Of a DNA stretch of 61,669 nt, positions 6,133 through 45,228 are shown one piece after another. Made by a program: the position numbers and the translations under genes. The notes under the pieces were generated by a model. The model searched no databases. It was given only the letters and a program-made list of their open reading frames with translations, and was not told where the DNA came from. Source of the DNA: a virus; the IMG/VR virus record IMGVR_UViG_3300029985_000045, positions 1 through 61,669 of that record; one strand, written 5' to 3'. How positions within the stretch are numbered: the stretch's first letter is position 1; each line of letters opens with the position of its first letter.

Positions 6133-6354
6133 TTAGGCTAATAAAAGTCTTTCAACTTTTGCCATAATTGTCTTGAATTTATACTTTGCTTGTTTCTTAG
6201 CGTATTTATAGTCTCTGTATGTGCCGACTACTCTTCCATCTGGATCATGTAGCTCAAACTTCCACCAAGCATAGTCATCACTGAATATATCATCATTCCA
6301 CTCTTCTTGTGGAATATCTATCTGAACTATCTTGTAGTAGTCTGACCACTTCAT
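6133..6354 (-). CDS. Small hypothetical protein, Trp/Tyr-rich
   Basis: 73 residues from the ATG at 6354, which overlaps the upstream stop as ATGA and has AAGGCGAG before it; the longer frame to 6384 would overlap more and lacks a ribosome site. Many aromatic and acidic residues, then a basic helix (YKYAKKQAKYKFKTI). Last of three coupled small genes following the AAA ATPase. Confidence 0.65.
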   Translation of the reverse strand: MKWSDYYKIVQIDIPQEEWNDDIFSDDYAWWKFELHDPDGRVVGTYRDYKYAKKQAKYKFKTIMAKVERLLLA

Positions 6355-6554
6355 AGTCTCGCCTTGAGAATGATCTCGTAACAACCGTCGTAGTCTTTAA
6401 CATAGGTCAGGACTTTAAGGTAATCAAGCATCTCTAAAAGAAGATGTCGCTTAAATACATCCTCTAAGACTTTATCTGACGGATCGAGGTCGCCTAAATG
6501 ATGGAAGTAACGATAATAAAGGTTACCGTCAAAGCCTTCTATCGGTTGCCACAT
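6351..6554 (-). CDS. Small protein of the LLxxLxI-type family
   Basis: 67 residues. The C-terminal half contains LLLEMLDYLKVLTYV, matching the hydrophobic helix-then-strand signature that recurs in many tiny genes of this phage; the neighbour upstream has LLYLLHLLKVVECDYV. Translationally coupled (ATGA) to the next gene. Function unknown. Confidence 0.65.
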   Translation of the reverse strand: MWQPIEGFDGNLYYRYFHHLGDLDPSDKVLEDVFKRHLLLEMLDYLKVLTYVKDYDGCYEIILKARL

Positions 6555-6751
6555 ATCCTTATTCCATCCAGACCTTCATATACATAGTCGCACTCAACAA
6601 CCTTTAAAAGGTGTAGCAGATATAGAAGGTTTCGAGTCTCTCTAATAATTTCATGGTCATCAAACGTATACATCCAAGTACTTCCCTGCGGAGGGTTATG
6701 CTCCGCCCAGAAGTCATTGTTAGGACCGTAGTGCCAGAAATTTCTAGTCAT
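6539..6751 (-). CDS. Small protein of the LLxxLxI-type family
   Basis: 70 residues from the ATG at 6751, which overlaps the stop of the AAA ATPase and has GGAG three bases before it. Trp-rich N-terminus, then LLYLLHLLKVV and a short YVYEG strand-like end. The longer frame to 6805 lies inside the ATPase gene and is rejected. Function unknown. Confidence 0.65.
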   Translation of the reverse strand: MTRNFWHYGPNNDFWAEHNPPQGSTWMYTFDDHEIIRETRNLLYLLHLLKVVECDYVYEGLDGIRICGNR

Positions 6752-7751
6752 CGTCTCCGCCGAAGCCAAGACCCAAGCGGCCTTTTGCTTTCTCTTCGAA
6801 GTCACGCTTGAAGAGCTTAGAGTGTTCGACGATCTCTTTCACAACCTGCATATAGGTCTTGTCATCGAGCTCTGCACGGACAGCGATCTCTTCCAAGTGG
6901 GCAACCGAGAACTCTTCAGTTCCCTTTGTGCCAAGGCATTCCTTCTCGTCTTCAGTGAGATCACGCTTGCTGATGAATGTCATCAGGCTGATCTTCTCGT
7001 CATGACTCGGAGGAGCGAGCTTCAACATGAGGTCAAAGCGACCTGGGCGATCTGCGAGAGATGCCAACAGGCTCTGTGGATGGTTAGTAGTAGCTACAAT
7101 GAACGTAGGGAGGCTGAATACAACCCCAACGCCATCAAGGAGGTTCAACATTCCCGAGTCAACACCCGAGTTAGAGCGATGACGCTCGCTGTCGCCTCCA
7201 CCGATGTCCTCGATGACGAGGATCATGCGGGTGCAATCCGCAGTGTACTTGCTGTTAGTAGACAGGAGCTTGGCGATATCATCAGCCTCGATCTCTGAGG
7301 TCGGCCACATGATAACTACTGTACCTGGATCTTCAGCGATGAGGTCAGAACAGAACTTCTCGATAGCAGAGCTCTTACCCATACCTGGGGCAGAGTAGAG
7401 CAATACGCCACGCTTCTTAAGGCGACCAAGCTTCTCGTACACGTGGAGACGCGAGAAGAACTTGTTGGCTTCAGCCATGATCTTAGTGGTGTTCGTAACC
7501 GTCTCAAGGAGGTTACGCTTCTTAAACTCGATTGGACGAAGTCCAAGACCAGCCATCGTCTTAGTGAAGACGAAAGTGCCAGGCTTGATCTCGTACTGGC
7601 GCTCGTCTTCAGGCTTCTCAAACTTATACTGATAGATGAACTGACCATCCTGGAAGCAGAGATCCGACTCAGGGAGCTCGTTCTCTAGACCAGCGTTCAT
7701 GTCGTTAAAGGATGTTTTCTTCTTCAGTACGAACTTGCCTTCGTCAATCAT
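6744..7751 (-). CDS. AAA+ ATPase (Bcs1/FtsH-like core)
   Basis: 335 residues. An N-terminal domain of ~110 residues precedes the AAA core: Walker A SAPGMGKS (120-127), Walker B MILVIED (about 176-182), then VATTNHP and DRPGRFD (sensor 1 and arginine finger). The order is that of classic AAA unfoldases and Bcs1-like proteins. The short acidic Asp-rich C-terminus resembles peptidase-docking tails, but this is only suggestive. GGGAG precedes the ATG, which overlaps the upstream stop as TAATG. It could unfold substrates for the phage ClpP-like proteins; that is inference. Confidence 0.82.
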   Translation of the reverse strand: MIDEGKFVLKKKTSFNDMNAGLENELPESDLCFQDGQFIYQYKFEKPEDERQYEIKPGTFVFTKTMAGLGLRPIEFKKRNLLETVTNTTKIMAEANKFFSRLHVYEKLGRLKKRGVLLYSAPGMGKSSAIEKFCSDLIAEDPGTVVIMWPTSEIEADDIAKLLSTNSKYTADCTRMILVIEDIGGGDSERHRSNSGVDSGMLNLLDGVGVVFSLPTFIVATTNHPQSLLASLADRPGRFDLMLKLAPPSHDEKISLMTFISKRDLTEDEKECLGTKGTEEFSVAHLEEIAVRAELDDKTYMQVVKEIVEHSKLFKRDFEEKAKGRLGLGFGGDDD

Positions 7752-14577: not shown

Positions 14578-15252
14578 TTATTCGTCAGTGCCCGAGCATG
14601 TATGAGGAGCAAGGTAAGAGATATACACGTCGCAATCGAGCTTAACGATCTTCTGAGCGAGGTGTAACTTCACCATCTCTTCAGAGTCAACAGACCATTC
14701 GGTATCGGTGATCTTTTTTTCGTAATCAGCCTTAGACATACCAATCACAGAGTAGATGGCTTCGTCGAACTCATCAGATGATCTCTGTAAGCCCTCGATG
14801 GCACGAGTATTGTGAACTAGTTTAGCAGTTGCGTGTTGCCAGAACATCTCGTGCATAATCATTCTAGAGTTTGCTACGACAAGGCGATGTAGACTGGTTG
14901 CTTGGATGTATCCTGCAGCAGAGCCACAGTACTTACAGATAACTACGACATTGGGGAGTTGAGCTATTAGCTTTCTGAGTACGACTGCTTGGTCGTATTG
15001 TCCGCCACCAGAGTTAATAATAAGGTAGATATTCTGGTCTTGTGGAACCATCACGCGCTTACCAATGATGGCATTGAACCAAGTGTTGACGGATACCGCG
15101 GTGAACTCACCCTCGAGCACCATCGTATTTTGAGCTGTCATGGTGACTGTTTCAATTGGCTTATTAGGAGTTACGGCTGCGACAACCACTAGGGTGAAGA
15201 ACAATGACAAGAAAAGAATTGACATTCTTTTAAGGATCTGTCTGACGATCAT
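14578..15252 (-). CDS. Membrane-anchored ClpP/S49-like protein (copy 2)
   Basis: 224 residues from the ATG at 15252 (GGAG six bases upstream). An N-terminal anchor or signal helix (about 8-28) precedes a ClpP-like domain: LIINSGGG (77-84), GSAAGYIQ with candidate nucleophile Ser111, His134 in MIMHEM, and Asp183 in ITDTEW. The nucleophile loop is one residue off the ClpP pattern and closer to signal-peptide peptidase SppA. Probably acts at or across the inner membrane. Activity not certain. Confidence 0.72.
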   Translation of the reverse strand: MIVRQILKRMSILFLSLFFTLVVVAAVTPNKPIETVTMTAQNTMVLEGEFTAVSVNTWFNAIIGKRVMVPQDQNIYLIINSGGGQYDQAVVLRKLIAQLPNVVVICKYCGSAAGYIQATSLHRLVVANSRMIMHEMFWQHATAKLVHNTRAIEGLQRSSDEFDEAIYSVIGMSKADYEKKITDTEWSVDSEEMVKLHLAQKIVKLDCDVYISYLAPHTCSGTDE

Positions 15253-17252: not shown

Positions 17253-17969
17253 TTAACGTTTCTTAGTATCGGTTTTCTTTTTAGGAGACGATTTGCGTTT
17301 TCCAGCAGTCTTTTTACCTGTCGTAATTGACTGCTTCTGACGTGAAGCAAACGGAGCCTTAATGGGTTGTTTAGTAACTTCGTATTGAACTTTACCAAAG
17401 ACCTTAGGTGTACCGATAGTGTCTACGATGCCGAACTTAACAGCTTCTTGGCCGACTAAGTAACGATCAGTTCCGTCTTGTTGCTTGATAACTGAGCGGA
17501 ATTCATCATAGTTCTTGAAGCCGCAGTTGCGTGCCAACAGACCCATGAAATACTCGTTTAAGCGAGTAGTCTCATTAACGTCTGCCTTCATGTCGTGTAC
17601 GTTCCCGCCGGTCCCAGATGAGACTTCGTGGACCATGACACGTGAGTGTCGGCCCAAGAAACGGACGTCCCCGTGTGACAATAGGACAGCTCCGCAGCTC
17701 ATTGCCTTACCCATACAGACAGTAACAATGGGGTTCGGGACTTCATCAATGGTCTCAATCATCTTGGCCAAGGCGTCTACATAGCCACCATAAGAGTCGA
17801 TGTGAATAGTAATAGGTCGGCTGGGGTCAGTTGCAGCGATAGCTATAACTGATGCTCTGAACTTTTGCGCGTGTTCCTCGTCGAATTTGGTAACCCAGAT
17901 TTCTGGGAGCTTAAGAGTATCGTCTTCCATTAGAACCACCTTTCCAGTAAAAGAATTGTACTTGGCCAT
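17253..17969 (-). CDS. ClpP-like serine protease (copy 3)
   Basis: 238 residues. SYGGY at 59-63, GKAMSCGAVLL with Ser91, His114 in VMVHEV, Asp168 in DRYLVGQEAVKFGIVD: a complete ClpP triad. The tail from ~200 is very basic (Lys/Arg/Ser/Thr-rich) and may bind nucleic acid or partners. It differs from copy 1 more than a recent duplicate would. No ribosome site is visible before the ATG. Confidence 0.85.
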   Translation of the reverse strand: MAKYNSFTGKVVLMEDDTLKLPEIWVTKFDEEHAQKFRASVIAIAATDPSRPITIHIDSYGGYVDALAKMIETIDEVPNPIVTVCMGKAMSCGAVLLSHGDVRFLGRHSRVMVHEVSSGTGGNVHDMKADVNETTRLNEYFMGLLARNCGFKNYDEFRSVIKQQDGTDRYLVGQEAVKFGIVDTIGTPKVFGKVQYEVTKQPIKAPFASRQKQSITTGKKTAGKRKSSPKKKTDTKKR

Positions 17970-18496: not shown

Positions 18497-19297
18497 ATGG
18501 ATAAAATCGACGCACTCATAAAGAAACTCCAAGAAGCTAAAGAAGAGCTGTCTAAAGCTGATGTCGTGAAGCCAGACACCGGATACGGAAAGATTACAAT
18601 CAAGGATAATACTCCGAAGTCGCAGAAACCTGCTGACCCACAGAAACCCTACGGTAAGGTAATCATCAAGGCTGAATCTGCTCCTGCAGCACCTAAGCCA
18701 CAAGCCGTTAGCATCGGTAAGCACTCCAATGGCAAGTTTAAAGCTTATAACTGGAAGGCAGGCCAAGTAGCTATGCACCCAGAAGAGTTCGACACTCATG
18801 ATGCAGCTAAGGCTCACTATGAAGCCAAAGGTCATATGATCAAGTCTGAAGAAGAATTAGAGAAAGATGCAGCTAACCCTAAGCTTGCACCCAAAGAAGT
18901 AAAGATCAAAGAACTTCAAGGCAAGATCGACTCAGGTACCTACAAAATTCCTGCTGCCAAAATTGCTGACAAGATGCTTGGTAAGAGCGACAAAGAGACT
19001 GAAAAAGAAGCTATGGACGCTGAGTTCGGCAAAATGGCTAAAGATGAAGCAATGATGATGGGCGAAGGATGCGGAATGGAAGCTATGGCTATGTCTAAAG
19101 ACGGCCAATGGTCTTTCAAGAAATCTGCATTCAAAGAGCTCGAAAGCAAACTCGAGCATGAAGGCAAGTCGAAAGAATCAGCCGGCGCTATTGCTTACTC
19201 TGTAGGCGAGAAGAAATACGGTAAAGCTGGTATGGAAGCGAAAGCTAAAGCCGGCGAAGCCAAGAAAGGCGACATGGGCGACGGAGAGATGTGCTGA
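18497..19297 (+). CDS. Hypothetical protein with FlgM-like anti-sigma segment
   Basis: 266 residues. Two short repeats YGKITIKDN and YGKVIIKAE (30-38, 52-60); residues 133-161 (EVKIKELQGKIDSGTYK and then IPAAKIADKML) match the sigma28-binding helices of FlgM; the Ala/Gly/Met-rich C-terminus includes AFKELESKLEHEGKSKESAG and KKYGKAGMEA, a pattern seen in small uncharacterised phage proteins. GAGGTCATA precedes the ATG. It could be a virion protein or a transcription modulator. Confidence 0.65.
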   Translation: MDKIDALIKKLQEAKEELSKADVVKPDTGYGKITIKDNTPKSQKPADPQKPYGKVIIKAESAPAAPKPQAVSIGKHSNGKFKAYNWKAGQVAMHPEEFDTHDAAKAHYEAKGHMIKSEEELEKDAANPKLAPKEVKIKELQGKIDSGTYKIPAAKIADKMLGKSDKETEKEAMDAEFGKMAKDEAMMMGEGCGMEAMAMSKDGQWSFKKSAFKELESKLEHEGKSKESAGAIAYSVGEKKYGKAGMEAKAKAGEAKKGDMGDGEMC

Positions 19298-20704: not shown

Positions 20705-22594
20705 ATGAATGTGAAGACTCCATGGGGCGAGATTGGCTATGTTACGTACAAGAGAACTTACTCTCGCAAGATGAACGACACTACGGAAGAATTCACAGAC
20801 ACGGTTGAACGAGTCCTTAACGCAGCAGACACACAACTCAATGTTGGATTCACTGCAGCTGAGCGTGCGCGAGCTCGAGACTATATGCTCGGACTAAAAG
20901 GAATTGTCGCGGGACGTTTCCTCTGGCAACTTGGAACAAAGACAGTAGAGAAGTTTGGACTCGCATCGCTTCAGAACTGCGCAGTCACTCTCGTAGATCA
21001 TCCAATTCGTCCTTTCACTTGGGCATTTGATATGCTCATGCTTGGATCTGGCGTAGGATACAACATCCAACGCGAGTACGTATATAAGATCCCACCTGTA
21101 ATGGATCGCGAGATCAAGGTCACACGCAAAGATACTAACGATGCTGACTTCATTATTCCTGATTCTCGTGAAGGATGGGTTAAGCTTCTTGAACACACGC
21201 TCTCCGCTTATCTCGTAGAAGGTAAGTCTTTCTCGTACTCTACTGTTCTCGTCCGTGGCAAAGGTGCTCCAATCAAGAGCTTCGGTGGTACTGCATCAGG
21301 ACCAGAAGAGCTCTGCTGGGGTATTGAGCAGATCTGCAAGGTGCTTGACTCTCGTCGTGGCAAACAGGTTCGTCCTATCGATTGCCTAGACATCATGAAC
21401 ATCATCGGATACATCGTTGTATCTGGTAACGTACGTCGCTCAGCTCAGATCGCTATCGGTGATATGGATGACCTTCAGTTCCTCAATGCTAAGCGTTGGG
21501 ACTTAGGCAATATCCCTAACTGGCGCGCGATGTCTAATAACTCGGTTGTATGCAATGACATGGCACTTCTCCCTGAAGCATTCTGGCAAGGTTACATCGG
21601 TAACGGTGAACCTTACGGACTCATCAATCTTAAGCTCGCCCGTGAAGTCGGTCGCTTAGCAGATGGCGACATGTACCCAGATCAAAAGATCATCGGCTTT
21701 AATCCTTGCGCAGAGCAATCGTTAGAAGACAAAGAGACCTGCTGTCTCGCTGAGATCTTCTTGCCTAACATCGCTTCTAAAGAAGAGCTTATGGACGTTG
21801 CTACAATTCTATACAGGATCAACAAGCATTCGTTAGCTCTGTCGTGCCATCACCCAGAGACAGAAGAAGTCGTTCACCGCAACATGCGTATGGGCATAGG
21901 CATGACTGGTATCCTTCAAGCATCTGATGAACAACGCTCGTGGCTGTCTGACTGCTATAAGCATTTACGTCAATATGACGCTCGCTACTCTGCTGAGAAG
22001 GGTTGGCCGAAATCTATTAAGCTTACTACTGTTAAGCCTAGTGGAACACTTAGCACACTCGCTGGGGTTACGTCAGGCGTTCACCCAGCTATCTACCAAC
22101 ACTTCATCCGTCGTATCCGCATGGCATCAGACTCTCCGCTAATCGCCGTCTGTCGCACCAATGGGTACAAAGTAGAGTACCAGAAGAACTTCGATGGAAC
22201 AGACGATAAGAACACCATGGTAGTGGAGTTCCCATGCTCGTATCCTAAAGGAACAGTATTGGCGAACGATACTACAGCTATCGATCAGCTCAAATGGGTT
22301 AAGAAGCTTCAAACTGAATGGTCTGACAACTCTGTCTCTTGTACTGTCTACTACCGCAAGGAAGAGCTTGAAGACATCAAAGCTTGGTTGCTTGCTAACT
22401 ACAATAACTCCCATAAGACTGTTAGCTTCTTACTACATAACGACCATGGGTTCACACAAGCTCCGTACGAAGAGATCACTGAAGATCAGTACAATACTCT
22501 ACGTGCTAACACTACACCTATTCATGGTATTGAAGAAGAGTTCGAGTTTATGGATAGTTTAGAGTGCGAAGGTGGCGTGTGCCCAATCAAGTGA
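20705..22594 (+). CDS. Adenosylcobalamin-dependent ribonucleoside-triphosphate reductase (class II)
   Basis: 629 residues, somewhat shorter than the ~740-residue Lactobacillus enzyme. FNPCAEQSL carries the thiyl-radical Cys and catalytic Glu, followed by a second Cys pair (ETCCLAEI); KPSGTLSTLAG is the conserved substrate loop; the C-terminus ends CEGGVCPIK, the redox-shuttle Cys pair of monomeric RTPR. Oxygen-independent, B12-requiring deoxynucleotide supply. AAAGGAAA precedes the ATG. Confidence 0.92.
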   Translation: MNVKTPWGEIGYVTYKRTYSRKMNDTTEEFTDTVERVLNAADTQLNVGFTAAERARARDYMLGLKGIVAGRFLWQLGTKTVEKFGLASLQNCAVTLVDHPIRPFTWAFDMLMLGSGVGYNIQREYVYKIPPVMDREIKVTRKDTNDADFIIPDSREGWVKLLEHTLSAYLVEGKSFSYSTVLVRGKGAPIKSFGGTASGPEELCWGIEQICKVLDSRRGKQVRPIDCLDIMNIIGYIVVSGNVRRSAQIAIGDMDDLQFLNAKRWDLGNIPNWRAMSNNSVVCNDMALLPEAFWQGYIGNGEPYGLINLKLAREVGRLADGDMYPDQKIIGFNPCAEQSLEDKETCCLAEIFLPNIASKEELMDVATILYRINKHSLALSCHHPETEEVVHRNMRMGIGMTGILQASDEQRSWLSDCYKHLRQYDARYSAEKGWPKSIKLTTVKPSGTLSTLAGVTSGVHPAIYQHFIRRIRMASDSPLIAVCRTNGYKVEYQKNFDGTDDKNTMVVEFPCSYPKGTVLANDTTAIDQLKWVKKLQTEWSDNSVSCTVYYRKEELEDIKAWLLANYNNSHKTVSFLLHNDHGFTQAPYEEITEDQYNTLRANTTPIHGIEEEFEFMDSLECEGGVCPIK

Positions 22595-22596
22595 TA

Positions 22597-22806
22597 CTAG
22601 TCAACGGCGTTCCCCACGTTTTTCTGTGGGGAATTCTTACTCCGCTCTGCAAGCCGGTTCGATGCGTTCGGGACTCTTTCCCAATACGTTGACCAGTATC
22701 TAAATTCATAATTGTGATTACTCCTTGATATTCCTAGTTTTTCTAGGAGTTGGAGTAGTTCATATAGATCTGAATTATTGGTCCACATCTTTTTGCCGTC
22801 TCTCAT
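22597..22806 (-). CDS. Small protein of the LLxxLxI-type family
   Basis: 69 residues. LYELLQLLEKLGISRSN followed by a Tyr/Trp-rich strand-like stretch and a charged tail; one of the clearest matches to the family signature. Convergent with the reductase gene. GGGTTGAT before the ATG is a weak ribosome site. Confidence 0.65.
   Translation of the reverse strand: MRDGKKMWTNNSDLYELLQLLEKLGISRSNHNYEFRYWSTYWERVPNASNRLAERSKNSPQKNVGNAVD
22610..22633 (+). terminator. Possible terminator hairpin after the reductase gene
   Basis: Perfect 8-bp stem TTCCCCAC/GTGGGGAA with an 8-base T-rich loop, starting 16 bases after the reductase stop. The U-tract is poor, and the hairpin lies inside the convergent 22597-22806 gene. 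Confidence 0.4.
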
Positions 22807-23194: not shown

Positions 23195-23591
23195 GGGCCG
23201 GTGCAATGCGCTCGACGAATTCTTTCGCTGCGGTAAGCGATTCGTTTGGAGACTGTAGTTTGAGCTTTCGCAACATAGACATGACCTGTCTAGTGCGCTT
23301 AACCTTATGGATGAATTGCCTGACGTCATCTCTATCTTGGGGAGTTTCTTGTTGTTGATTGTAGTAGTCGTACTTCATCTCAACATAATCCTTAGACTCT
23401 TTGAGTCCCCAACCAAACACTTGCTGAATGAATGGTCCAGATGTTACACCAGGGTCATAATGTGATCTGTAACAAGATGGTATGCGTGTAGCTTTACCAA
23501 GGAAGCTGGTGAGCAGGCGAACAGCTTTGATATCATAAATCTTGTTCTCTACTCGACGGCGAGGTTTATTCTTGATCGGCGATGATGTCAT
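23190..23591 (-). CDS. Hypothetical protein with LLxxLxI-type C-terminus
   Basis: 133 residues. Basic N-terminus, aromatic middle, and a C-terminal segment QVMSMLRKLKLQSPNESL that matches the mini-protein signature. ATG supported by GGATGG; overlaps the upstream gene by 26 bases. Stop lies in the repeat core. Function unknown. Confidence 0.65.
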   Translation of the reverse strand: MTSSPIKNKPRRRVENKIYDIKAVRLLTSFLGKATRIPSCYRSHYDPGVTSGPFIQQVFGWGLKESKDYVEMKYDYYNQQQETPQDRDDVRQFIHKVKRTRQVMSMLRKLKLQSPNESLTAAKEFVERIAPAH

Positions 23592-23874
23592 CGATGTCCA
23601 TCCCTAATAAGATGTAGTCAATTGAGCGATCCTCGTGCCACTGACGAAACTCTGCTTGAATAGAACCTTGGATATAGGTCATGCCACCGTCTTTGTTCTT
23701 CATGTATAGGTTGACAGATCCATCCTTCTCTTTTATGGCAGCGATCTTGCCAAACGATGTAGCAGAAGAACTAGTAGCTCTGATCCAGTCAGGAGCAAAC
23801 CAGTATGGAACACCACGCTTAGATACGTGGTCACTTTCTCTTAGAGGCTTTTCGATCTTTGATTTCTTGCTCAC
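23566..23874 (-). CDS. Hypothetical protein
   Basis: 102 residues, GTG start with GAGGAGTTAAAG upstream. Basic N-terminus, central beta-like region (IAAIKEKDGSVNLYM) and acidic C-terminus. No family recognised. Confidence 0.6.
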   Translation of the reverse strand: MSKKSKIEKPLRESDHVSKRGVPYWFAPDWIRATSSSATSFGKIAAIKEKDGSVNLYMKNKDGGMTYIQGSIQAEFRQWHEDRSIDYILLGMDIDDIIADQE

Positions 23875-24019
23875 GTTTCTTTAACTCCTCTACTGCGTCT
23901 CGCTTAGCCATTCTTCTTGTTAGATAGTATATCCATGTCCCGTGCACCATGCTCGGATCCGGACTCTTTAACTTCAGCTTCACTAGCAATTTGTAAAGAC
24001 CTCTTGCGTTCCTCAGCAT
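23831..24019 (-). CDS. Small protein of the LLxxLxI-type family
   Basis: 62 residues. LYKLLVKLKLKSPDPS, then an aromatic strand and a charged helix. GAGTGAGAC precedes the ATG, which lies inside the upstream gene. Close in pattern to the C-terminus of the 23190-23591 protein (MLRKLKLQSPN). Confidence 0.6.
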   Translation of the reverse strand: MLRNARGLYKLLVKLKLKSPDPSMVHGTWIYYLTRRMAKRDAVEELKKREQEIKDRKASKRK

Positions 24020-29599: not shown

Positions 29600-30085
29600 T
29601 TACTTAACGAGATTGCGGAGTTCAGGAGGCAACGCATTTGTATCGATGTTGACAGTCTTAACTTTAGAAGCTTGGATCTGAGCAACACGATTGTTAATAG
29701 CTACTTCAACTTCTTTGCGGTCTGTATCAGTAGAGAGTGTAGTGAGCAATGCTCGCATAGCCTTCAACTGAGGATCGCTGGAGCCAATACGTGAACCAGG
29801 GTTTTTAGCGGAGTAATTAGCCCCACCATTCAGTCGTTTGTCTTTGCGTAACCAGTTAGACTGGAGACCAGATACGTATCCTTTAAGGTCTGAGTCGCCG
29901 CGAGTACTATCAAGTTCGATGGTGCGAGCAGTGAATCCCTCAAACAGGATAGCATTCACTTGACTGCGTAGTTCTCGGTTCATAAGAGCTCCAACATTGG
30001 TTCCTTCAGTAAAGGCAATGTTGTTCTCCTTCAGAACAGAGATGACTGCATTATAGACCGCTTCCTTCTGTGACATCTTGGACAT
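29600..30085 (-). CDS. QKEAV-family protein, paralogue 1
   Basis: 161 residues from the ATG at 30085 (GAGGAGGACTTTT upstream). SQKEAVYNAV, VNAILFEGF, DLKGYVSGLQSNWLRKDKRL, NPGSRIGSSDPQLKAMRALL and NALPPELRNLV are shared with the genes at 37101 and 40530. This family is present in many large phages, with function not known to me. A 20-bp palindrome lies just upstream. Confidence 0.75.
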   Translation of the reverse strand: MSKMSQKEAVYNAVISVLKENNIAFTEGTNVGALMNRELRSQVNAILFEGFTARTIELDSTRGDSDLKGYVSGLQSNWLRKDKRLNGGANYSAKNPGSRIGSSDPQLKAMRALLTTLSTDTDRKEVEVAINNRVAQIQASKVKTVNIDTNALPPELRNLVK

Positions 30086-35523: not shown

Positions 35524-35534
35524 TATAGTCTCAG
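35524..35534 (-). promoter_or_regulatory. CTGA-N3-TA promoter-like motif
   Basis: Minus-strand CTGAGACTATA, 24 bases before the ATG at 35500; overlaps the stop codon of the upstream gene. Confidence 0.5.
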
Positions 35535-36019
35535 AAAATAGTTGTTAACAGCCAACATTCTTCATCTTCAAAAGATAAGGAGTCAACTACAAGAGATCTT
35601 AAATAGGTCATTTGATCTTGTTTAAGATCAGCATAAGTAGCATAATAAGCAGTAGCATAAGCAGCATAAGCAACATAAGCAGCAGCATCAGCAGCATCAG
35701 CAGCATCAGCAGCAACATCAGCAACAACAGCAACAGCAGCATAAGCAACATAAGCAGCATAAGCAGCAGCATCAGCAGCATAAGCAGCATAAGCAGCATA
35801 AGCAGCAGCATCAGCAGCCTTACATTCCTCTTTTGTAGTTTTGCCTTCCATGAAGAGAGAAGTTACTTCTAACGCTTTAAGACTTCTTTCATCTTCCATG
35901 AGATGTTTAACTTGATTGGCGCAAAATAGAGCGAACTTTACTTGACTCAAATGTGGCAGTAGATAAAGAAAATGCTTTCTATTGTCCCAAGTGAAATCTT
36001 TTTCAAATAAAGAATCCAT
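35531..36019 (-). CDS. Ala-rich AAY/AAD repeat protein
   Basis: 162 residues from the ATG at 36019 (GGGAGGTAATT upstream). Unique N-terminal ~70 residues (KHFLYLLPHLSQVKFAL), then about 65 residues made almost wholly of Ala-Ala-Tyr/Asp/Val triplets, then an acidic end. Similar Ala/Tyr/Asp repeats occur in other phage and in putative immunity proteins; I cannot assign a function. The repeat probably forms an amphipathic helix or helical solenoid. Confidence 0.7.
   Translation of the reverse strand: MDSLFEKDFTWDNRKHFLYLLPHLSQVKFALFCANQVKHLMEDERSLKALEVTSLFMEGKTTKEECKAADAAAYAAYAAYAADAAAYAAYVAYAAVAVVADVAADAADAADAAAYVAYAAYATAYYATYADLKQDQMTYLRSLVVDSLSFEDEECWLLTTIF
35640..35822. repeat. Near-perfect trinucleotide-type coding repeat
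   Basis: Runs of GCA, TCA and TAA-containing triplets on the plus strand (for example GCAGCATAAGCAGCA) encode the Ala-Ala-Tyr/Asp repeats on the minus strand. Length likely varies by slippage without changing frame. Confidence 0.7.
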
Positions 36020-37100: not shown

Positions 37101-37565
37101 TTACTTCGAGAACTTAGCAGCAAGGTCAGCAGGAAGAGCTGAGAAGTCAACTGTGACTTTCTTAGTCTTAGTTGCATTGATATCGCTAACACGAGCGTCA
37201 ATGTAAGCTTGAACTTCAGCTTTCTCTTCGTCGGTAGTCAACGTCGAGATCAAAGCGCGCATTGCTTTGAGTTGCGGGTCGCCAGAGCCAGCGCGTGATC
37301 CAGGGTTCTTAGCAACGTAAGCGACATTGCCGTTAAGGCGTTTGTCTTTACGCAACCAATTCGACTGAAGACCAGAGACATACGACTTCAAGTCGCTGTC
37401 AGTGATGTCTGTCTTCTCGAGCTCGATCTTTCCGCTACGGAAACCCTCGAACAAGATAGCGTTCACTTGAACGCGCTCTTCTTTGGTTGGGCTATAGCTA
37501 TCAGCTTGGCCGCAAACGTTAGTAACGGCTTGGAATACTGCTTCTTTTTGCGACACTTTAGACAT
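37101..37565 (-). CDS. QKEAV-family protein, paralogue 2
   Basis: 154 residues. Shares SQKEAVFQAV, VNAILFEGFRSGKIE, DLKSYVSGLQSNWLRKDKRL, NPGSRAGSGDPQLKAMRALI and FSALPADLAAKFSK with paralogue 3 at 40530, to which it is closest. GGGAGG precedes the ATG. Function unknown. Confidence 0.75.
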   Translation of the reverse strand: MSKVSQKEAVFQAVTNVCGQADSYSPTKEERVQVNAILFEGFRSGKIELEKTDITDSDLKSYVSGLQSNWLRKDKRLNGNVAYVAKNPGSRAGSGDPQLKAMRALISTLTTDEEKAEVQAYIDARVSDINATKTKKVTVDFSALPADLAAKFSK

Positions 37566-40529: not shown

Positions 40530-40991
40530 TTACTTAGAGAACTTAGCAGCGAGATCAGCAGGCAGAGCAGAGAAGTCAACAGTCTTGGCGACCTTCGTTG
40601 CGTTCAGCTCAGCGACTCGTGCATCGATGTAAGCTTGAACTTCAGCTTTCTCTTGATCAGTAGTCAGGGTCGTGATCAGAGCGCGCATCGCCTTCAGCTG
40701 GGGATCAGTCGAACCAGCGCGCGAGCCAGGGTTCTTAGCGGTATACTGAACACCACCGTTCAAGCGCTTGTCCTTGCGAAGCCAGTTGCTCTGTAAGCCA
40801 GACACATAACCCTTCAGGTCGCTATCGCTCTTCTCAGTATCAATCTCGATCTTGCCTGAGCGGAAACCCTCAAAGAGGATCGCATTCACTTGAGCGCGCT
40901 GTTCCTTAGTAGGTGCATACACACCGTCTTGCTCGCCCATGACATTGATGATAGCTGCGAATGCCGCTTCTTTTTGTGACATCTTGCTCAT
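40530..40991 (-). CDS. QKEAV-family protein, paralogue 3
   Basis: 153 residues, very similar to paralogue 2 over the whole length. GGGAGGATATGTT precedes the ATG; CTGA motif 53 bases upstream of it. High, regular codon bias suggests strong expression. Confidence 0.75.
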   Translation of the reverse strand: MSKMSQKEAAFAAIINVMGEQDGVYAPTKEQRAQVNAILFEGFRSGKIEIDTEKSDSDLKGYVSGLQSNWLRKDKRLNGGVQYTAKNPGSRAGSTDPQLKAMRALITTLTTDQEKAEVQAYIDARVAELNATKVAKTVDFSALPADLAAKFSK

Positions 40992-41053: not shown

Positions 41054-41277
41054 ATCGTGCATCATAACTTAGCAAAGTCTTTATCATTGCCTCGTTATGC
41101 TACTCTATAGGTTCGGGAAACTGGCGCCCGCTATCCTCAGCTTAAAAGGGAACCCCTATTTTCAGGTCGGTACCCGCCGTCATTACTCCGTGTACATAAG
41201 CTTTTTCCTATAAAACAGGCCCCGCCACCTTCCAACCCTAATAGGCACAATGTACCACCTGGCCCTTTTCTAATAGG

Positions 41278-41283
41278 TATAAT
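41278..41283 (+). promoter_or_regulatory. -10 box, near-leaderless arrangement
   Basis: TATAAT seven bases before the ATG at 41291; drives the chain of eight coupled mini-genes. The ~285 bases between 40992 and 41277 hold no gene. Confidence 0.5.
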
Positions 41284-41290
41284 TTTTCTG

Positions 41291-41449
41291 ATGAAACTCA
41301 CATTTGATTTCCTTAATGATGATCTATATCTGGTCCCCGCCCACAAGCGGAACCTACTAGTACTACTCGCTACACTCAACATCATCAACATCACATTTGA
41401 AGACCGCTTCATCGTTAAATGGACCAACCAGGACCAACTTAAATTATGA
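41291..41449 (+). CDS. 52-residue LLxxLxI-type mini-protein
   Basis: First of eight plus-strand genes linked by short overlaps. NLLVLLATLNIINITFED matches the family, followed by a FIVKW strand. No ribosome site; TATAAT seven bases before the ATG. Stop overlaps the next start (ATGA). Confidence 0.6.
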   Translation: MKLTFDFLNDDLYLVPAHKRNLLVLLATLNIINITFEDRFIVKWTNQDQLKL

Positions 41450-41667
41450 AGAAAAACCACCACGCCACCCTCACCAAGCGCCAATTCGAGGACTTCGCTC
41501 CTTACAAGGACAAAATCCAGAACTCACAGGTCTACCGCTTTCACTCATCAGGCGCACAACTATCTGTCCGCGCCTCCGTCGCGGCCAACGGGCTCCACTA
41601 CATCTCCACAAACATGGCCCCCGCTAGCCTCATAATAATCTTGATTAAACTGGGCCTTCACCTATGA
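41446..41667 (+). CDS. Mini-protein ending in an LLxxLxI-type helix
   Basis: 73 residues. Basic N-terminus, beta-like centre, and ends SLIIILIKLGLHL, so here the family helix is at the very C-terminus. ATGA overlaps at both ends. Confidence 0.55.
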   Translation: MKKNHHATLTKRQFEDFAPYKDKIQNSQVYRFHSSGAQLSVRASVAANGLHYISTNMAPASLIIILIKLGLHL

Positions 41668-41822
41668 ATGACTACATGACTAAACTAAAACACTACTCTC
41701 AGCTCTACATGTTCCTCAAACAATTGGGCCTATCCGCTCCACTCGTCATGAACTCCAACGACGTCCACAACATTCACTTTGACGGGCAGACCCTCTCCTA
41801 CTCTGGGACCACATCATGGTAG
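41664..41822 (+). CDS. 52-residue LLxxLxI-type mini-protein
   Basis: LYMFLKQLGLSAPLVM followed by a beta-hairpin-like IHFDGQTLSYSG. Coupled by ATGA upstream; the next gene starts inside its last codons. Confidence 0.6.
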   Translation: MNDYMTKLKHYSQLYMFLKQLGLSAPLVMNSNDVHNIHFDGQTLSYSGTTSW

Positions 41823-42070
41823 TAGCCGAACGCCCACTCACCTGTCAAATTGAGATGAACTATGGAAACGTCGACATCTCGTTCGTGGTTCCTCATCGTG
41901 CTCACGAGTCCAAACTTCCGCAGCTACAACAGGCCCTCTACTCTTCGCTCTACCAGCGATTCATCGGGCAAAGACAGACCTCGGCCCGCCTCGATGAGAT
42001 GCGATCGATCGTGGACTCGACGGCTCCACTTCTCTATCTACTCCTTCAACTTGGCGTGAGGATAGCATGA
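41816..42070 (+). CDS. Mini-protein ending in an LLxxLxI-type helix
   Basis: 84 residues. Beta-like start (CQIEMNYGNVDISFVV), long helix, and C-terminal APLLYLLLQLGVRIA. Overlaps the previous stop by seven bases and the next start as ATGA. Confidence 0.5.
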   Translation: MVVAERPLTCQIEMNYGNVDISFVVPHRAHESKLPQLQQALYSSLYQRFIGQRQTSARLDEMRSIVDSTAPLLYLLLQLGVRIA

Positions 42071-42216
42071 TCCACGTCCTTACTCCTGAGGAGTTCTCAC
42101 ACTTCGTCGACCTATGGAATATCTTGGGTAAACTCAAGGCCATGCCGTCCTACAGCATCGTCTACCATCGGGACCGATCTGGCCGCTGCACCGAAGTACA
42201 TGTGGAGTTCCCATGA
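42067..42216 (+). CDS. 49-residue LLxxLxI-type mini-protein
   Basis: FVDLWNILGKLKAMPSYSIVY then an RCTEVHVEF strand. ATGA overlaps at both ends; no separate ribosome site. Confidence 0.55.
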   Translation: MIHVLTPEEFSHFVDLWNILGKLKAMPSYSIVYHRDRSGRCTEVHVEFP

Positions 42217-42386
42217 GCTACATTCCTTGCTCGTGCGACGACCTCGTCGGAGCACCTATCACCGAGATCAATGTCAAGGCACTTCCGCTCATCAAGCTCT
42301 TGCATAAACTTCTCCACGGGAACAGGCCTCACCGTCTTGACCCGTACTGGGAGCCGGACGACTACTATGACACAGGTGTATCGTGA
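42213..42386 (+). CDS. 57-residue LLxxLxI-type mini-protein
   Basis: LPLIKLLHKLLHGNRPHRLD followed by an acidic, aromatic end (YWEPDDYYDTG). Two Cys near the start. The next gene's GTG overlaps its stop. Confidence 0.55.
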   Translation: MSYIPCSCDDLVGAPITEINVKALPLIKLLHKLLHGNRPHRLDPYWEPDDYYDTGVS

Positions 42387-42529
42387 GACTTCACGGCATC
42401 TCTATAGAGTTCAAAGACTCCGAGTATCGAGGAGTCAGTACTCTTCACTGCACGCGTGCTCTTCCACGGCTTCTGAACCTAATGTTTCAGCTGAACCTCA
42501 TCAAGGGCTTCTCGGTGACCGAGCTATGA
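42383..42529 (+). CDS. 48-residue LLxxLxI-type mini-protein
   Basis: GTG start overlapping the upstream TGA. Beta-like first half, then LPRLLNLMFQLNLIKGFSV. Stop overlaps the next ATG. Confidence 0.55.
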   Translation: MRLHGISIEFKDSEYRGVSTLHCTRALPRLLNLMFQLNLIKGFSVTEL

Positions 42530-42732
42530 GCTTGTTTCAGAAGTGGAGCCACTACAGGTATATTGGCGAGACCGACGATGAGTTCCGGACCCGTATCATC
42601 GGGGATGCGAACCAGCGCTTCAACATGATCATCGTCTTAGCCAAGCTCGGTATTCAGGAAGCTAGAGATCAGCTGAGCAAGGCCGGAGTTGAGTGGGCGA
42701 GCGACAGATGGTTTAACGACGGCGGACGATAG
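42526..42732 (+). CDS. 68-residue LLxxLxI-type mini-protein
   Basis: Last of the coupled chain. FNMIIVLAKLGIQEARDQL in the middle, closest to the KLGIKSAR motif of the 43064 and 43596 genes; Trp-containing end. Confidence 0.6.
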   Translation: MSLFQKWSHYRYIGETDDEFRTRIIGDANQRFNMIIVLAKLGIQEARDQLSKAGVEWASDRWFNDGGR

Positions 42733-42745
42733 CCCAAAGTTCTAG

Positions 42746-42751
42746 TATAAT
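42746..42751 (+). promoter_or_regulatory. -10 box, leaderless arrangement
   Basis: TATAAT with exactly six bases to the ATG at 42758. Confidence 0.55.
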
Positions 42752-42757
42752 AAAGAT

Positions 42758-43051
42758 ATGGAATACTTGGCACTCTCAGCAAACGGTCAGTGGTCTTTAC
42801 ATAAGAACACTAACGACCACGATGCAGACTCGGTTGCTCCGCACACAGCGGACACACGACCGTATGAAGTATTTCAAGGACACTCGATGACGGGTCAACT
42901 CGCAGTTGACCACGGCAGTCAGGGTACTCTCCACGATTTCGGCGGCGGTAGCCGACCGAAAGCAGAACACACCAAGCAAGCACGCATCGGACAACCGAAT
43001 CACCCGGTAGACTCGATGTACAGTGATCGTCACCCGGGCGACGGCGAATAG
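42758..43051 (+). CDS. Hypothetical His/Asp-rich protein, leaderless
   Basis: 97 residues, unusually rich in His, Asp, Gly and Pro, low in hydrophobics, probably disordered. The start MEYLALSANGQWSLHK resembles MSKDGQWSFKK in the FlgM-like protein at 18497. No ribosome site. Function unknown. Confidence 0.55.
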   Translation: MEYLALSANGQWSLHKNTNDHDADSVAPHTADTRPYEVFQGHSMTGQLAVDHGSQGTLHDFGGGSRPKAEHTKQARIGQPNHPVDSMYSDRHPGDGE

Positions 43052-43057
43052 TATAAT
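43052..43057 (+). promoter_or_regulatory. -10 box, leaderless arrangement
   Basis: TATAAT with exactly six bases to the ATG at 43064; just after the stop of the preceding gene. Confidence 0.55.
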
Positions 43058-43063
43058 CGCCGC

Positions 43064-43312
43064 ATGGCGATTGTTCCAAAGACATTTGATCAGATAATGG
43101 GCGAGAGCATTGCTTCTTTGAGCAAGGCACTTGAGGTAGAGATGTTCTATGGACATCCACGCCCTGAGGAAAAGCTTTGCGGTTTGCTCAGCAAGCTTGG
43201 TATTAAGAGTGCTCGCAGCTTCAGCATGTTTAAGTTTGAAGGACTTGACACAATTTTGAAGTCTGTTACGTTTGATAGCACTCAGCTCAAACTATGGAAA
43301 GATATTAAGTAA
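43064..43312 (+). CDS. LLxxLxI-type mini-protein, leaderless
   Basis: 82 residues. EEKLCGLLSKLGIKSARSFS is a model example of the family helix; KLGIKSAR is repeated exactly in the 43596 gene. Beta-like C-terminal part. Confidence 0.65.
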   Translation: MAIVPKTFDQIMGESIASLSKALEVEMFYGHPRPEEKLCGLLSKLGIKSARSFSMFKFEGLDTILKSVTFDSTQLKLWKDIK

Positions 43313-43384
43313 CTTAGTTCTAACTCATTATATTGCATCTGGCAAGGGGCCCCGTCGAAGCGCGGGCGCTTAGGAGAAATACGA

Positions 43385-43603
43385 ATGCTGACAAATATGT
43401 TCGATAGCACTTCCACTCTGAAGCTGTTTCGTATTCTGTATCAACTGAACATCATCACTGATTTTTATCATAAGAAACATGCATTTTCGGCTCTGACTAA
43501 AATGATTAACCCGCCAGAGCCGAAAGAGAACTGGATTAGATTCGCCAGCGTAAGTCTTCAGATAGATTATATTGAGCTAATACCGGTGACCAGACGTGGA
43601 TGA
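43385..43603 (+). CDS. LLxxLxI-type mini-protein
   Basis: 72 residues. TLKLFRILYQLNIITDFY near the N-terminus. TAGGAGAAATACGA before the ATG is a normal ribosome site, unlike the leaderless genes just upstream. A GGGGCCCC palindrome lies in the leader. Confidence 0.65.
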   Translation: MLTNMFDSTSTLKLFRILYQLNIITDFYHKKHAFSALTKMINPPEPKENWIRFASVSLQIDYIELIPVTRRG

Positions 43604-43703
43604 TTACGTCGATCGACGCAAGTCAACCAAGCTAAAGATCTTACTCGCGAAGCTTGGAATCAAGAGCGCACGCCCTGCTGTTTCAAGCTTATCAGGTTAC
43701 TAA
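43596..43703 (+). CDS. 35-residue LLxxLxI-type mini-protein
   Basis: GTG start inside the end of the previous gene. LKILLAKLGIKSARPAV and a short tail: close to the minimal unit of the family. Confidence 0.55.
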   Translation: MDDYVDRRKSTKLKILLAKLGIKSARPAVSSLSGY

Positions 43704-43742
43704 TTGAGTTGAAATGTGTAAGCTGCAAAAGAATCAGCTTGT

Positions 43743-44024
43743 CTACTTCTTGGCACGCTGAGACGACGTTAAGTCTTGAATATGGCGTTCAAGGGCCATC
43801 GACGCTTCAAAGTAAGCCTCGGCCTTTTCATAAGGTGTTAAACACCCTTTAGTAGAAGGATCATAGGATACAAGAGTGAGCTGGTAGCGAACTGGCCCAC
43901 CGTCTTCTGAGAGTTGTATTCTCTTTGTAACGGTCTCAATAGTACCTATGACTCTAAGACGCCTCAATAGCATATAGACATGATGCACTGAAGTAACTTG
44001 ATCGGACGTCAATCTGTTGAACAT
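43743..44024 (-). CDS. LLxxLxI-type protein
   Basis: 93 residues. VHHVYMLLRRLRVIGTIETV, then beta strands and a C-terminal helix. GAGGATGC precedes the ATG; overlaps the upstream gene by 16 bases. Confidence 0.6.
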   Translation of the reverse strand: MFNRLTSDQVTSVHHVYMLLRRLRVIGTIETVTKRIQLSEDGGPVRYQLTLVSYDPSTKGCLTPYEKAEAYFEASMALERHIQDLTSSQRAKK

Positions 44025-44194
44025 GCATCCTCTGCAATCATCTTGCCAAGTCGAGCCATATAGTCAGTCCAGGTTGCTGCCGCAGGTTCAAATGATGAGC
44101 GAATGCCAAGGTCACGAAGAAAATACAATAGTCGGAAATGTAGTTCCAACTTCTGTAGATCTTGTATCTTCTGGTACCGCCCAATCCGCGTCAT
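44009..44194 (-). CDS. LLxxLxI-type mini-protein
   Basis: 61 residues. LHFRLLYFLRDLGIRSSFEP; a TATAAC box lies seven bases before the ATG, so it may have its own near-leaderless transcript although AGGTAC could act as a weak ribosome site. Confidence 0.6.
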   Translation of the reverse strand: MTRIGRYQKIQDLQKLELHFRLLYFLRDLGIRSSFEPAAATWTDYMARLGKMIAEDACSTD

Positions 44195-44202
44195 GTACCT
44201 AG

Positions 44203-44334
44203 TTATACTAGCTTCGACTTATGTGTGTATAGCAATTTGGCAAGAAAGAACTTTAGGTCAATAGCATAGTACAGATCGATTGCCTCTTTATTGTTCTTGA
44301 AACGAATAACAACAGGGCGCTTTTGATCTTTCAT
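44203..44334 (-). CDS. 43-residue LLxxLxI-type mini-protein (divergent)
   Basis: AAAGGAAGTACTT precedes the ATG. Ends YAIDLKFFLAKLLYTHKSKL, with the helix at the C-terminus. Its stop overlaps the TATAAC box of the next gene. Confidence 0.55.
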   Translation of the reverse strand: MKDQKRPVVIRFKNNKEAIDLYYAIDLKFFLAKLLYTHKSKLV

Positions 44335-44363
44335 AAGTACTTCCTTTGATGAGGACCTAGTAC

Positions 44364-44627
44364 TTATATTTTATCAGGTTCTTCGGAAAGCATCTCTTCT
44401 ATAAGCTTATCGCCTAGCTTTTGTTCGTATAGGTCTTTCAGCAGCTTATCGTATGTAGATGTTCTTAGGTTGTAGCCGTACTTCTGTTCCCGGCGCATTT
44501 TGTTCTTAGGTCCGCCTAGTGTGCCCTGAAGATAAGAGATATCGTCACAGCTTACGAAACGTAGTTCAGATTTGATCTTGTCAACAACTAGTTGTTCTCT
44601 TCTAATGTCTTCTGTGTCGAACGCCAT
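44364..44627 (-). CDS. Hypothetical charged protein
   Basis: 87 residues from the ATG at 44627 (GGGAGATGGT upstream). Helical, Asp/Glu/Lys-rich, Tyr-containing. No family recognised. Confidence 0.6.
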   Translation of the reverse strand: MAFDTEDIRREQLVVDKIKSELRFVSCDDISYLQGTLGGPKNKMRREQKYGYNLRTSTYDKLLKDLYEQKLGDKLIEEMLSEEPDKI

Positions 44628-44646
44628 ACCATCTCCCAAGACACTC

Positions 44647-44748
44647 TCACTTGATCTTCAATAAACGATACATAAAAGTAATGAGATGATACTTCGCCTG
44701 ATCTTGCTTATGTCGAAGGAATAAGTCAGTTACTACTGCTTGTCCCAT
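44647..44748 (-). CDS. 33-residue LLxxLxI-type mini-protein (possible)
   Basis: ATG at 44748 inside the end of the upstream gene with GAGCAGCATCG before it. Ends KYHLITFMYRLLKIK. The frame is open further upstream but that portion lacks coding character. Confidence 0.45.
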   Translation of the reverse strand: MGQAVVTDLFLRHKQDQAKYHLITFMYRLLKIK

Positions 44749-44978
44749 CGATGCTGCTCGATGTCCAGGGGTTCCTGCTCGTCCACAAGAGCATGATGTG
44801 TTATGACATCCAAAGCCATTTTTGCTCTTTGTGCTGGTGACGGTGGGTTCGGGTACAGAAACTCCGGGAGACACATTGCTTTGAACGGACATACTTTACA
44901 CCTTTGCGATTCCATGCACTTCCCGTCTAGGGAAGCAATCTGTTCTAAAATTGTTGAGTCATTTTTACTTAGTGCCAT
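44733..44978 (-). CDS. Cys-rich protein, paralogue A
   Basis: 81 residues from the ATG at 44978 (GGAGAGCCAG upstream). ILEQIASLDGKC ... CKVCPFKAMCLPEFL: the spacing GxC-x(6)-CxxCP parallels paralogue B upstream, consistent with a zinc or iron-sulfur site. Acidic C-terminus. Confidence 0.65.
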   Translation of the reverse strand: MALSKNDSTILEQIASLDGKCMESQRCKVCPFKAMCLPEFLYPNPPSPAQRAKMALDVITHHALVDEQEPLDIEQHRWDKQ

Positions 44979-45228
44979 CTGGCTCTCCAAGCAAATCATC
45001 AACAGCTTTATCAATCAGTATACGTGAGGCGACTTCTTTATATTTAGCGTCGGCCTGCTCTTCAGATAGATCTTCTACCCCAAGGGCTTCCACACATGAC
45101 AAGAATGAGCCGTTTGATTTCTTTTTGAGCTTAGACAACGGACAGGACTTACAGATGGACGGTTTGGCCCACAGGGTACAAGAGCCCTCGGAATCTACGA
45201 TTTTCTTCAATATGTCCATGCTATCCAT
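44965..45228 (-). CDS. Cys-rich protein, paralogue B
   Basis: 87 residues. ILKKIVDSEGSC ... CKSCPLSKL ... FLSCVEAL, same layout as paralogue A. A TATAAT lies about 23 bases before the ATG. Four Cys suggest a metal site. Function unknown. Confidence 0.65.
   Translation of the reverse strand: MDSMDILKKIVDSEGSCTLWAKPSICKSCPLSKLKKKSNGSFLSCVEALGVEDLSEEQADAKYKEVASRILIDKAVDDLLGEPDGTK

Follow-up and report, generated by a model that had tools for sequence, protein, structure and literature searches.

What are the many tiny genes crowded between positions 41291 and 44748 of IMG/VR virus record IMGVR_UViG_3300029985_000045, and does the short helical peptide that recurs in them mark a real family? The record, whose full 61,669 bases we call the window, encodes a tail sheath (phrog_279, E 6e-29), a ribonucleotide reductase and a DNA ligase, and an earlier note had listed 27 of its small open reading frames (ORFs) as a dispersed family sharing one helix of the type LLxxLxI. 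We find that this helix is a module concentrated in the small genes of a phage group, where it occurs at many positions within the protein and is joined to many partners, and that a minority of these mini-genes also carry short segments resembling virion proteins, namely the capsid N-arm, the sheath N-terminus and the probable tail tube. The reading that we rank first, with a probability of only about 0.38, is that the locus is a hypervariable mini-gene array with one module in common, and that its products would act as competitive mimics toward the host sensors that detect virion proteins.

The window phage belongs to a large family of uncultured, contractile-tailed phages. Relatives (contigs and loci carry G and L numbers here) were retrieved as 52 loci with a sheath search, and 80 of 102 loci were kept with a capsid search. 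Relatives have an array of genes of 35-100 residues near the sheath gene; in nine loci whose array DNA is not alignable to the window, the interval upstream of the sheath contains very short ORFs that also carry the motif, frequently in its longer version L..LL.KLGIKSA. No nucleotide match to 41-45.5 kilobases (kb) or 40-61.7 kb of the window was found among 50,697 phage records. Assemblies L002-L004 are near-identical to the window (99.95-100% over the stretch compared), and the 175-kb contig of L003 (G001), being a duplicate, was left out of the profile count. The major capsid protein of G001 matches phrog_752 (E 3e-52) and, in the PDB, an SPO1-type Gp6.1 (E 2e-63; entry 9vel, which we take to be from SPO1); gp6.1 is also the name of the coat protein in the SPO1 record.

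Is the helix more frequent than chance allows? Array ORFs were picked by tiling blind to the motif and scored against the strict pattern [LIVMFY]..[LIVMF][LIVMF]..L[GKNR][ILV], with expectations taken from shuffling. The pattern was present in 7 of the 13 tiled ORFs of the window array (0.2 expected) and in 84 of 191 across 14 arrays including the window (1.9 expected), an enrichment that is partly by construction because array bounds were set in part by clusters of the module. Outside the arrays, 47 of 758 small called genes had the motif against 7.0 expected, and large genes contained 28 motifs in 295,441 residues. Six-frame ORFs of the window gave 29 strict matches among 728, some of which, in ORFs overlapping larger genes, are probably not genes.

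Relatedness between members was assessed with a core profile of 20 rows (L..LL.KLGIKSA; threshold 8 bits), a search that the earlier note had named as able to refute the family and that the family withstood. The profile found 90 of 14,053 ORFs in 20 contigs, 19 of them profile rows, and none in shuffled or reversed controls. The 12 contigs that supplied no row yielded 39 of 6,626 ORFs, with both controls again at zero; 24 of these lie in six contigs fetched via the module or a module-bearing protein and 15 in five contigs first fetched via the sheath, which are not a random sample because they were taken further after the first module search had matched. At the same threshold there were no matches among 505 SPO1 ORFs (1-50 kb) or in the stretches of T4 (494 ORFs; best 7.3 bits) and Mx1 (419 ORFs). 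All 27 ORFs of the earlier note exist, lie on both strands as it said, and stand above chance as a group that proves larger than first seen; its membership was drawn too widely, however, as 19 match the strict pattern and eight fail (34781, 10736, 24632, 27168, 42067, 42213, 44203 and 44647). Four of the 27 reach at least 8 bits, namely the profile rows 43064, 43596 and 44009 together with 22597 (10.7 bits, not a row), while 41816 (7.5) and 44203 (6.9) fall near the threshold and most others near or below zero.

Conservation of the module is seen at the protein level. Every synonymous codon for Leu, Gly, Ile, Ser, Ala and Lys (six, four, three, six, four and two, respectively) is used somewhere among 56 copies of the module, which argues that selection acts on the protein and rules out an array of DNA repeats or recombination sites, for which conserved nucleotides in each unit would be needed. 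Arrays of L037 and L038 are about 95-97% identical, and a mini-gene of 49 residues (L037, 746-895) is missing from L038; in their seven shared mini-genes, one further gapped mini-gene being left out, 10 codon changes are silent and 12 change the amino acid. Between L043 and L048, four of eight mini-genes have no match, two gapped ones were left out, and the remaining two show 45 silent and 43 changing differences. Without constraint, amino-acid changes are expected to be roughly three times as frequent as silent ones. That these are chance low-complexity helices or non-coding ORFs is thus hardly credible and is refuted for the array, given the near balance of silent and changing differences, the empty controls, orthologues in up to 11 contigs and the start-stop overlaps of neighboring genes; it is possible for single dispersed ORFs, many of which score low on the profile.

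The gain or loss of a mini-gene between such close strains, together with the profile matches, bears out the earlier proposal that a small module has arisen and diversified repeatedly. Its statement that members have no likeness outside the motif holds largely between families, where profile similarity is centered on the module and spans about 16-40 columns, but several families have orthologues and some members carry virion pieces. In the 44009 family, LRDLGI is invariant in eight aligned sequences with 29-42% identity to the window protein, and the G030 member departs from it. The two Cys-rich flanking genes resemble each other and stand apart from the module families.

What, then, is joined to the module? 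With the module masked, 102 mini-genes were searched against 412 families of the phages' own proteins of at least 110 residues, and 10 reached E<=1 against 0.1 per shuffled set. Besides one self-match (G004_125038) and one match to a protein not known as structural (G030_9683), eight were to virion proteins: the capsid (G024_7594, 1e-5; G011_67078, 8e-4; G020_19578, 1e-3; G000_43064, 0.022), the probable tail tube (G024_6971, 7e-5; G004_124744, 0.09), a Gly-rich protein (G005_10485, 0.12) and the sheath (G005_11402, 0.2). The Gly-rich matches are of low complexity and are the least sure of the virion matches. We called 53557, 54139 and 54830 the probable tail tube from gene order; BLASTP of 53557 or 54139 against SPO1 gp10.1 gave no match, and their PHROGs names are mixed.

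Segment profiles run on 15,983 small ORFs with shuffled controls gave a similar picture. The capsid N-arm profile found five ORFs at 12 bits or more (none shuffled), four of them with the module. At 8 bits or more the sheath N-terminus profile found six (none shuffled): a genuine sheath gene cut short (L015) and five others, two of which have the module at threshold. Two tube segment profiles found two and four ORFs at 12 bits or more (none shuffled), which leaves two mini-genes once a truncated tube gene (L026) and a 35-residue ORF without the module (G006) are removed. Capsid P-domain and spine segments alone were weak at 10 bits (four against one, and none against none). Three module-bearing mini-genes have N-terminal peptides scoring at least 36, a level reached by none of 625 shuffles; two are sheath-like and the third is 43064, whose N-terminus (score 37) resembles a 2,359-residue protein taken by eye for baseplate J. 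The same gene has a capsid N-arm segment (24.4 bits with the segment profile) and a spine segment (8.1 bits against a shuffle maximum of 5.3), and from these matches it would read as a baseplate N-terminus, a capsid-spine-like segment, the module and a capsid N-arm, the spine part being the least sure piece. An alternative in which its first part is a colinear capsid N-terminus scored 1.9 bits (shuffle 1% level 1.3, maximum 3.8), weaker than the spine, and is the less likely of the two. The capsid P-domain and spine, the baseplate N-terminus and the Gly-rich protein may thus be sampled as well, on weaker evidence. These chimeras are an addition to what the earlier note saw. Separately, G012 encodes a 155-residue protein without the module that looks by eye like a shortened capsid protein (23226-23693, -; 10.5 bits) and a 102-residue protein with a capsid N-arm-like end (22191-22499, -; 10.9 bits).

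Several sources for the module and its partners were considered and either rejected or found unsupported. With a larger phage protein in mind as donor of the module, 1,542 proteins were scored; two reached 8 bits, of which one is an array gene, and so did one shuffled sequence. The capsid segment GLLQQLLKG is alike by eye and not significant; the stretch ETDxxxRxRI of the 42526 family gave E 4.8 against the baseplate, and the by-eye idea of the 43743 family as a tail-tube mimic an hhalign probability of 0.1. A bacterial origin was not supported either: a pattern scan of genome contigs gave 95 stretches (80 listed), and those listed in frames shorter than 140 residues looked like chance fragments, save one contig that matched the phage contig G004. 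That contig, LNEN01000305.1 (146,658 bases), is binned as Cytophagales bacterium Ga0077538 (L146/L189); its module ORFs and size are identical to those of G004, and it is probably a misbinned phage.

Structure offers another way of reading the module. In the AlphaFold2 (AF2) model of 43743 (mean predicted local distance difference test score, pLDDT, 87.8), the motif forms a helix followed by a hairpin, with no PDB or viral structure match at E<=0.001; the model of the 43064 type is poor and of low confidence. A PDB search with the module profile gave weak matches only (best E 0.09), and tblastn in phage records found none for 44009 and one organism at E 0.3 for 43743. The Gly, Asn, Lys or Arg that follows the last Leu, with Ile, Val or Leu behind it, would fit a helix C-cap, and one may postulate a host-takeover or anti-defense arsenal on a diversified small alpha-beta fold, in which the motif would be a capped core helix and the virion likeness a side product of gene birth by recombination. 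This is consistent with that choice of residues, with the predicted 43743 fold and with the fact that most mini-genes have no virion piece; the KSA extension and the near-invariant KLGI exceed the needs of a fold core, however, matches of this kind are almost absent for non-virion families, and the 43064 type is not confidently folded, so that we consider this scenario unlikely.

The position of the module bears on a further alternative, in which the module or a virion piece is a packaging signal and the products are injected as virion cargo like the T4 internal proteins. A short shared peptide on variable small proteins is what such a signal would look like, and virion-protein pieces could act as docking parts. 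In the 90 profile-matching ORFs, however, the module is not N-terminal but starts at 0.04 to 0.82 of protein length (median 0.36), and no cleavage site after it was noticed by eye, although no dedicated search was made. We regard cargo as very unlikely.

How might a virus use a helix joined to pieces of virion proteins? In published work, CapRel senses capsid, and the complex predicted by the authors places the P-domain sheet and the spine helix of the capsid protein at the interface (PMC9712102); one CapRel domain senses two unrelated triggers (PMC11578894); DSR2 senses the tail tube, and DSAD1 competes for that site (PMC11087589); Thoeris senses capsid (PMC11312562). A mimic of virion proteins would work as follows. 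The module would be an amphipathic helix, L..LL.KL, that ends in Gly (or Lys, Asn or Arg) followed by a hydrophobic residue, with KSA added in its fullest form, and may serve as a common hook or structural core. The partner part would bind a target that normally meets the corresponding virion protein, most likely an immune sensor with which the host detects freshly synthesized virion proteins; the mimic would occupy this sensor without activating it. Changes in the set of mini-genes would then track changes in host sensors. We rank this decoy reading first because the mini-genes turn over fast and virion proteins are conserved, and the anti-defense or takeover role suggested in the earlier note is plausible.

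Several points weigh against the decoy reading. The capsid N-arm pieces of four mini-genes score strictly better against 33, 71, 54 and 66 of 87 capsids than against their own (with 22, 6, 20 and 7 capsids tied, own included), so they are not recent copies of the resident gene, and a decoy of the phage's own protein would not seem to need a better fit to other capsids; sheath pieces give no such signal (3, 6, 0 and 30 of 62 score better). Most mini-genes show no virion piece at all, a sensor decoy leaves the sharing of one helix unexplained, and no partner of the helix is known. The first module search matched 24 of 41 related records, and the 17 without a match, many of them short, include the long G003 (153 kb, a sheath relative with no ORF at the profile threshold), G009 (166 kb) and G010 (97 kb); by eye, some records without a match have small genes with looser helices. 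Pfam, PHROGs and PADLOC gave no match at E<=0.01 for the mini-genes submitted (best 0.022, PHROGs), a negative that is uninformative because the mini-genes are novel.

That capsid pieces fit the capsids of other phages at least as well as their own is why we rank second the possibility that the products are assembly poisons, dominant-negative virion fragments that would join the assembly of capsids or tails in related phages or satellites infecting the same cell, with the shared helix spoiling the product. The donors of the pieces are proteins that self-assemble, the sheath N-terminus and capsid N-arm being among the parts sampled, and a phage-encoded blocker of tail assembly with its own antidote, Tab and anti-Tab, has been described (PMC10884400). 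Because its targets are conserved within the family, however, such a poison would also act on its own phage if neither timing nor an antidote protected it; no antidote gene was identified, and conserved targets give little reason for fast turnover. We think this scenario somewhat unlikely. A formulation that spans both sensors and rivals is a modular epitope system, an evolving library in which a common LLxKLGI module is combined with a target-specific bait, some baits being taken from the phage's own capsid, sheath, tube and baseplate, gained or lost singly as units, and used for blinding bacterial pattern-recognition sensors or jamming rivals; we hold this as a tentative but serious possibility.

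The genes of the window array and its dispersed candidates are collected in Table 1. Eight plus-strand ORFs tile 41291-42732 with seven overlaps, each of 4 or 7 nucleotides (nt), and a minus-strand set converging on this chain spans 45228 to 43743. The LLHxLLH ending of 42213 has by-eye counterparts in relatives G023_97170 and G011_176173.

Table 1 Features of the mini-gene array in the window and of dispersed candidates.
Feature	Position	Strand	Basis
Conserved non-coding element directly before the plus-strand array	41100..41285 (within 41064-41290)		BLASTN, alignment of 12 copies
Mini-gene, NLLVLLATLNI then strand	41291..41449	+	ORF and motif scan; TATAAT 13 nt before start
Mini-gene, C-terminal motif LIIILIKLGL	41446..41667	+	Strict motif; overlaps preceding gene by 4 nt
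Mini-gene, LYMFLKQLGLSAP	41664..41822	+	Strict motif; 4-nt overlap
Mini-gene, C-terminal LLYLLLQLGV	41816..42070	+	7.5 bits; 7-nt overlap
Mini-gene in chain, looser helix	42067..42216	+	Strict motif failed
Mini-gene in chain, LIKLLHKLLHG	42213..42386	+	Strict motif failed
Mini-gene, GTG start, LLNLMFQLNL	42383..42529	+	Strict motif; 4-nt overlap
Mini-gene, MIIVLAKLGIQEAR	42526..42732	+	Strict motif, 5.2 bits; relatives in G005 and G030 (family 27)
Array gene without motif, GQWSLHK family	42758..43051	+	Orthologues in relatives; N-terminus resembles other phage proteins, E 4e-6
Putative chimeric mini-gene joining, in order, a baseplate-J-like N-terminus, a capsid-spine-like segment, the LCGLLSKLGIKSAR module and a capsid N-arm segment	43064..43312	+	Module 27.5 bits (profile row)
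Mini-gene, LFRILYQLNI	43385..43603	+	Orthologues in 4 other contigs (family 11)
Mini-gene, GTG start, LKILLAKLGIKSAR	43596..43703	+	29.1 bits (profile row)
Conserved array gene, VYMLLRRLRVIG helix then hairpin (predicted)	43743..44024	-	Orthologues in 11 contigs including the window; AF2 mean pLDDT 87.8
Conserved array gene, RLLYFLRDLGIRSS	44009..44194	-	29.7 bits (profile row); LRDLGI invariant in 8 aligned sequences
Conserved array gene, LKFFLAKLLY	44203..44334	-	Strict motif failed, 6.9 bits; orthologues in 11 contigs including the window
Array gene without motif	44364..44639	-	Family 12
Array gene, helix LITFMYRLLKIK	44647..44892	-	Strict motif failed; family 1
Cys-rich flanking gene	44733..45014	-	In 10 contigs (family 4)
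Cys-rich flanking gene	44965..45228	-	In 10 contigs (family 6); resembles 44733, probability 88
Dispersed member, LYELLQLLEKLGIS	22597..22806	-	10.7 bits, not a profile row
Dispersed candidate, LYKLLVKLKLKSP	23831..24019	-	Strict motif, 2.0 bits
Dispersed candidate, LLEMLDYLKV then strands	6351..6554	-	Strict motif, profile score negative
Dispersed candidate, LLYLLHLLKV	6539..6805	-	Strict motif, score 0

Of the 14 array contigs, counting the window, 10 have a BLASTN match (E<=0.01) to the non-coding element before the array; so do G003 and G011, whose arrays are sparse or lie at another site. Rfam gave no match at the element in a search of 40.9-45.4 kb, with one sub-threshold match elsewhere, and only three of nine predicted pairs have two-sided change; the predicted structure is weak, and a structured RNA is not supported. 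The start codons of 41291, 42758 and 43064 are preceded at 12-13 nt by TATAAT, as are those of many genes of G001 (e.g., 98675-102703, 105287-107026 and 126183-130871), which suggests leaderless transcripts that begin at the ATG from an ordinary promoter. TATAAW occurs within 45 nt upstream of 18 of 71 late-region and 27 of 183 other G001 genes, against 2.9% of random stretches.

Other features of these genomes were recorded alongside. A second dispersed peptide, E.LKF..NGQWSL.KA, which could be a targeting signal, stands at the start of or inside several otherwise unlike proteins (window 42758-43051 and 18497-19297; G006 72951; G022 12990; G007 12696; G011 144713 and 48217; best E 4e-6, weakest 0.24). 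Three paralogues of one protein of 150-160 residues occur over 11 kb of the window (29600-30085, 37101-37565 and 40530-40991); one copy of this family (family 9, seven contigs) flanks arrays wherever seen, and the 40530 protein has no PHROGs match. By eye, the window also has small HNH-like, probably homing, endonuclease genes at 13173, 18010, 19298, 45287, 46675 and 49460 and three ClpP-like serine protease genes (4705-5535, 14578-15252 and 17253-17930). The protein at 35531-36019 has a long Ala-rich AAYAADAA repeat.

How does this array compare with known phage systems? The T4 internal proteins and Alt share one short peptide on otherwise unlike small proteins of a variable locus, but that peptide is an N-terminal, cleaved capsid-targeting sequence, whereas the module here can lie anywhere in the protein and has virion pieces attached. 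The host-takeover module of SPO1 is likewise a small-gene cluster, in a phage with a related capsid protein, yet the module profile matches none of its 505 ORFs at 8 bits (1-50 kb). T4 Srd and Srh are annotated in their record as postulated decoys, though of host sigma factors and not of the phage's own virion proteins. If the decoy reading holds, DSAD1 would be analogous as a small phage protein at the virion-protein site of the sensor DSR2, but in the cited passages it is a single protein without a shared module or array (PMC11087589). Tab would be the analog in the poison scenario, being encoded by one phage and affecting how another assembles its virions; it differs in coming from a prophage and in its link to the tape measure protein, and is not described in the cited passages as a virion-piece chimera (PMC10884400).

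A literature search of open-access papers found no such arrays, and within that literature the joining of one module to virion pieces appears, from sequence comparison, to be a new kind of system. Bacterial immune proteins sense capsid and tail proteins, and few phage answers are known. If the proposed function is true, combining a module with pieces of its own virion would give a phage a novel route to inhibitors, and the array would reveal the virion surfaces that matter to hosts or rivals. The module is also a sequence signature with which such genes can be found without known homologues, and the arrays offer a natural case of gene birth in which a fixed module is joined to fragments of resident genes.

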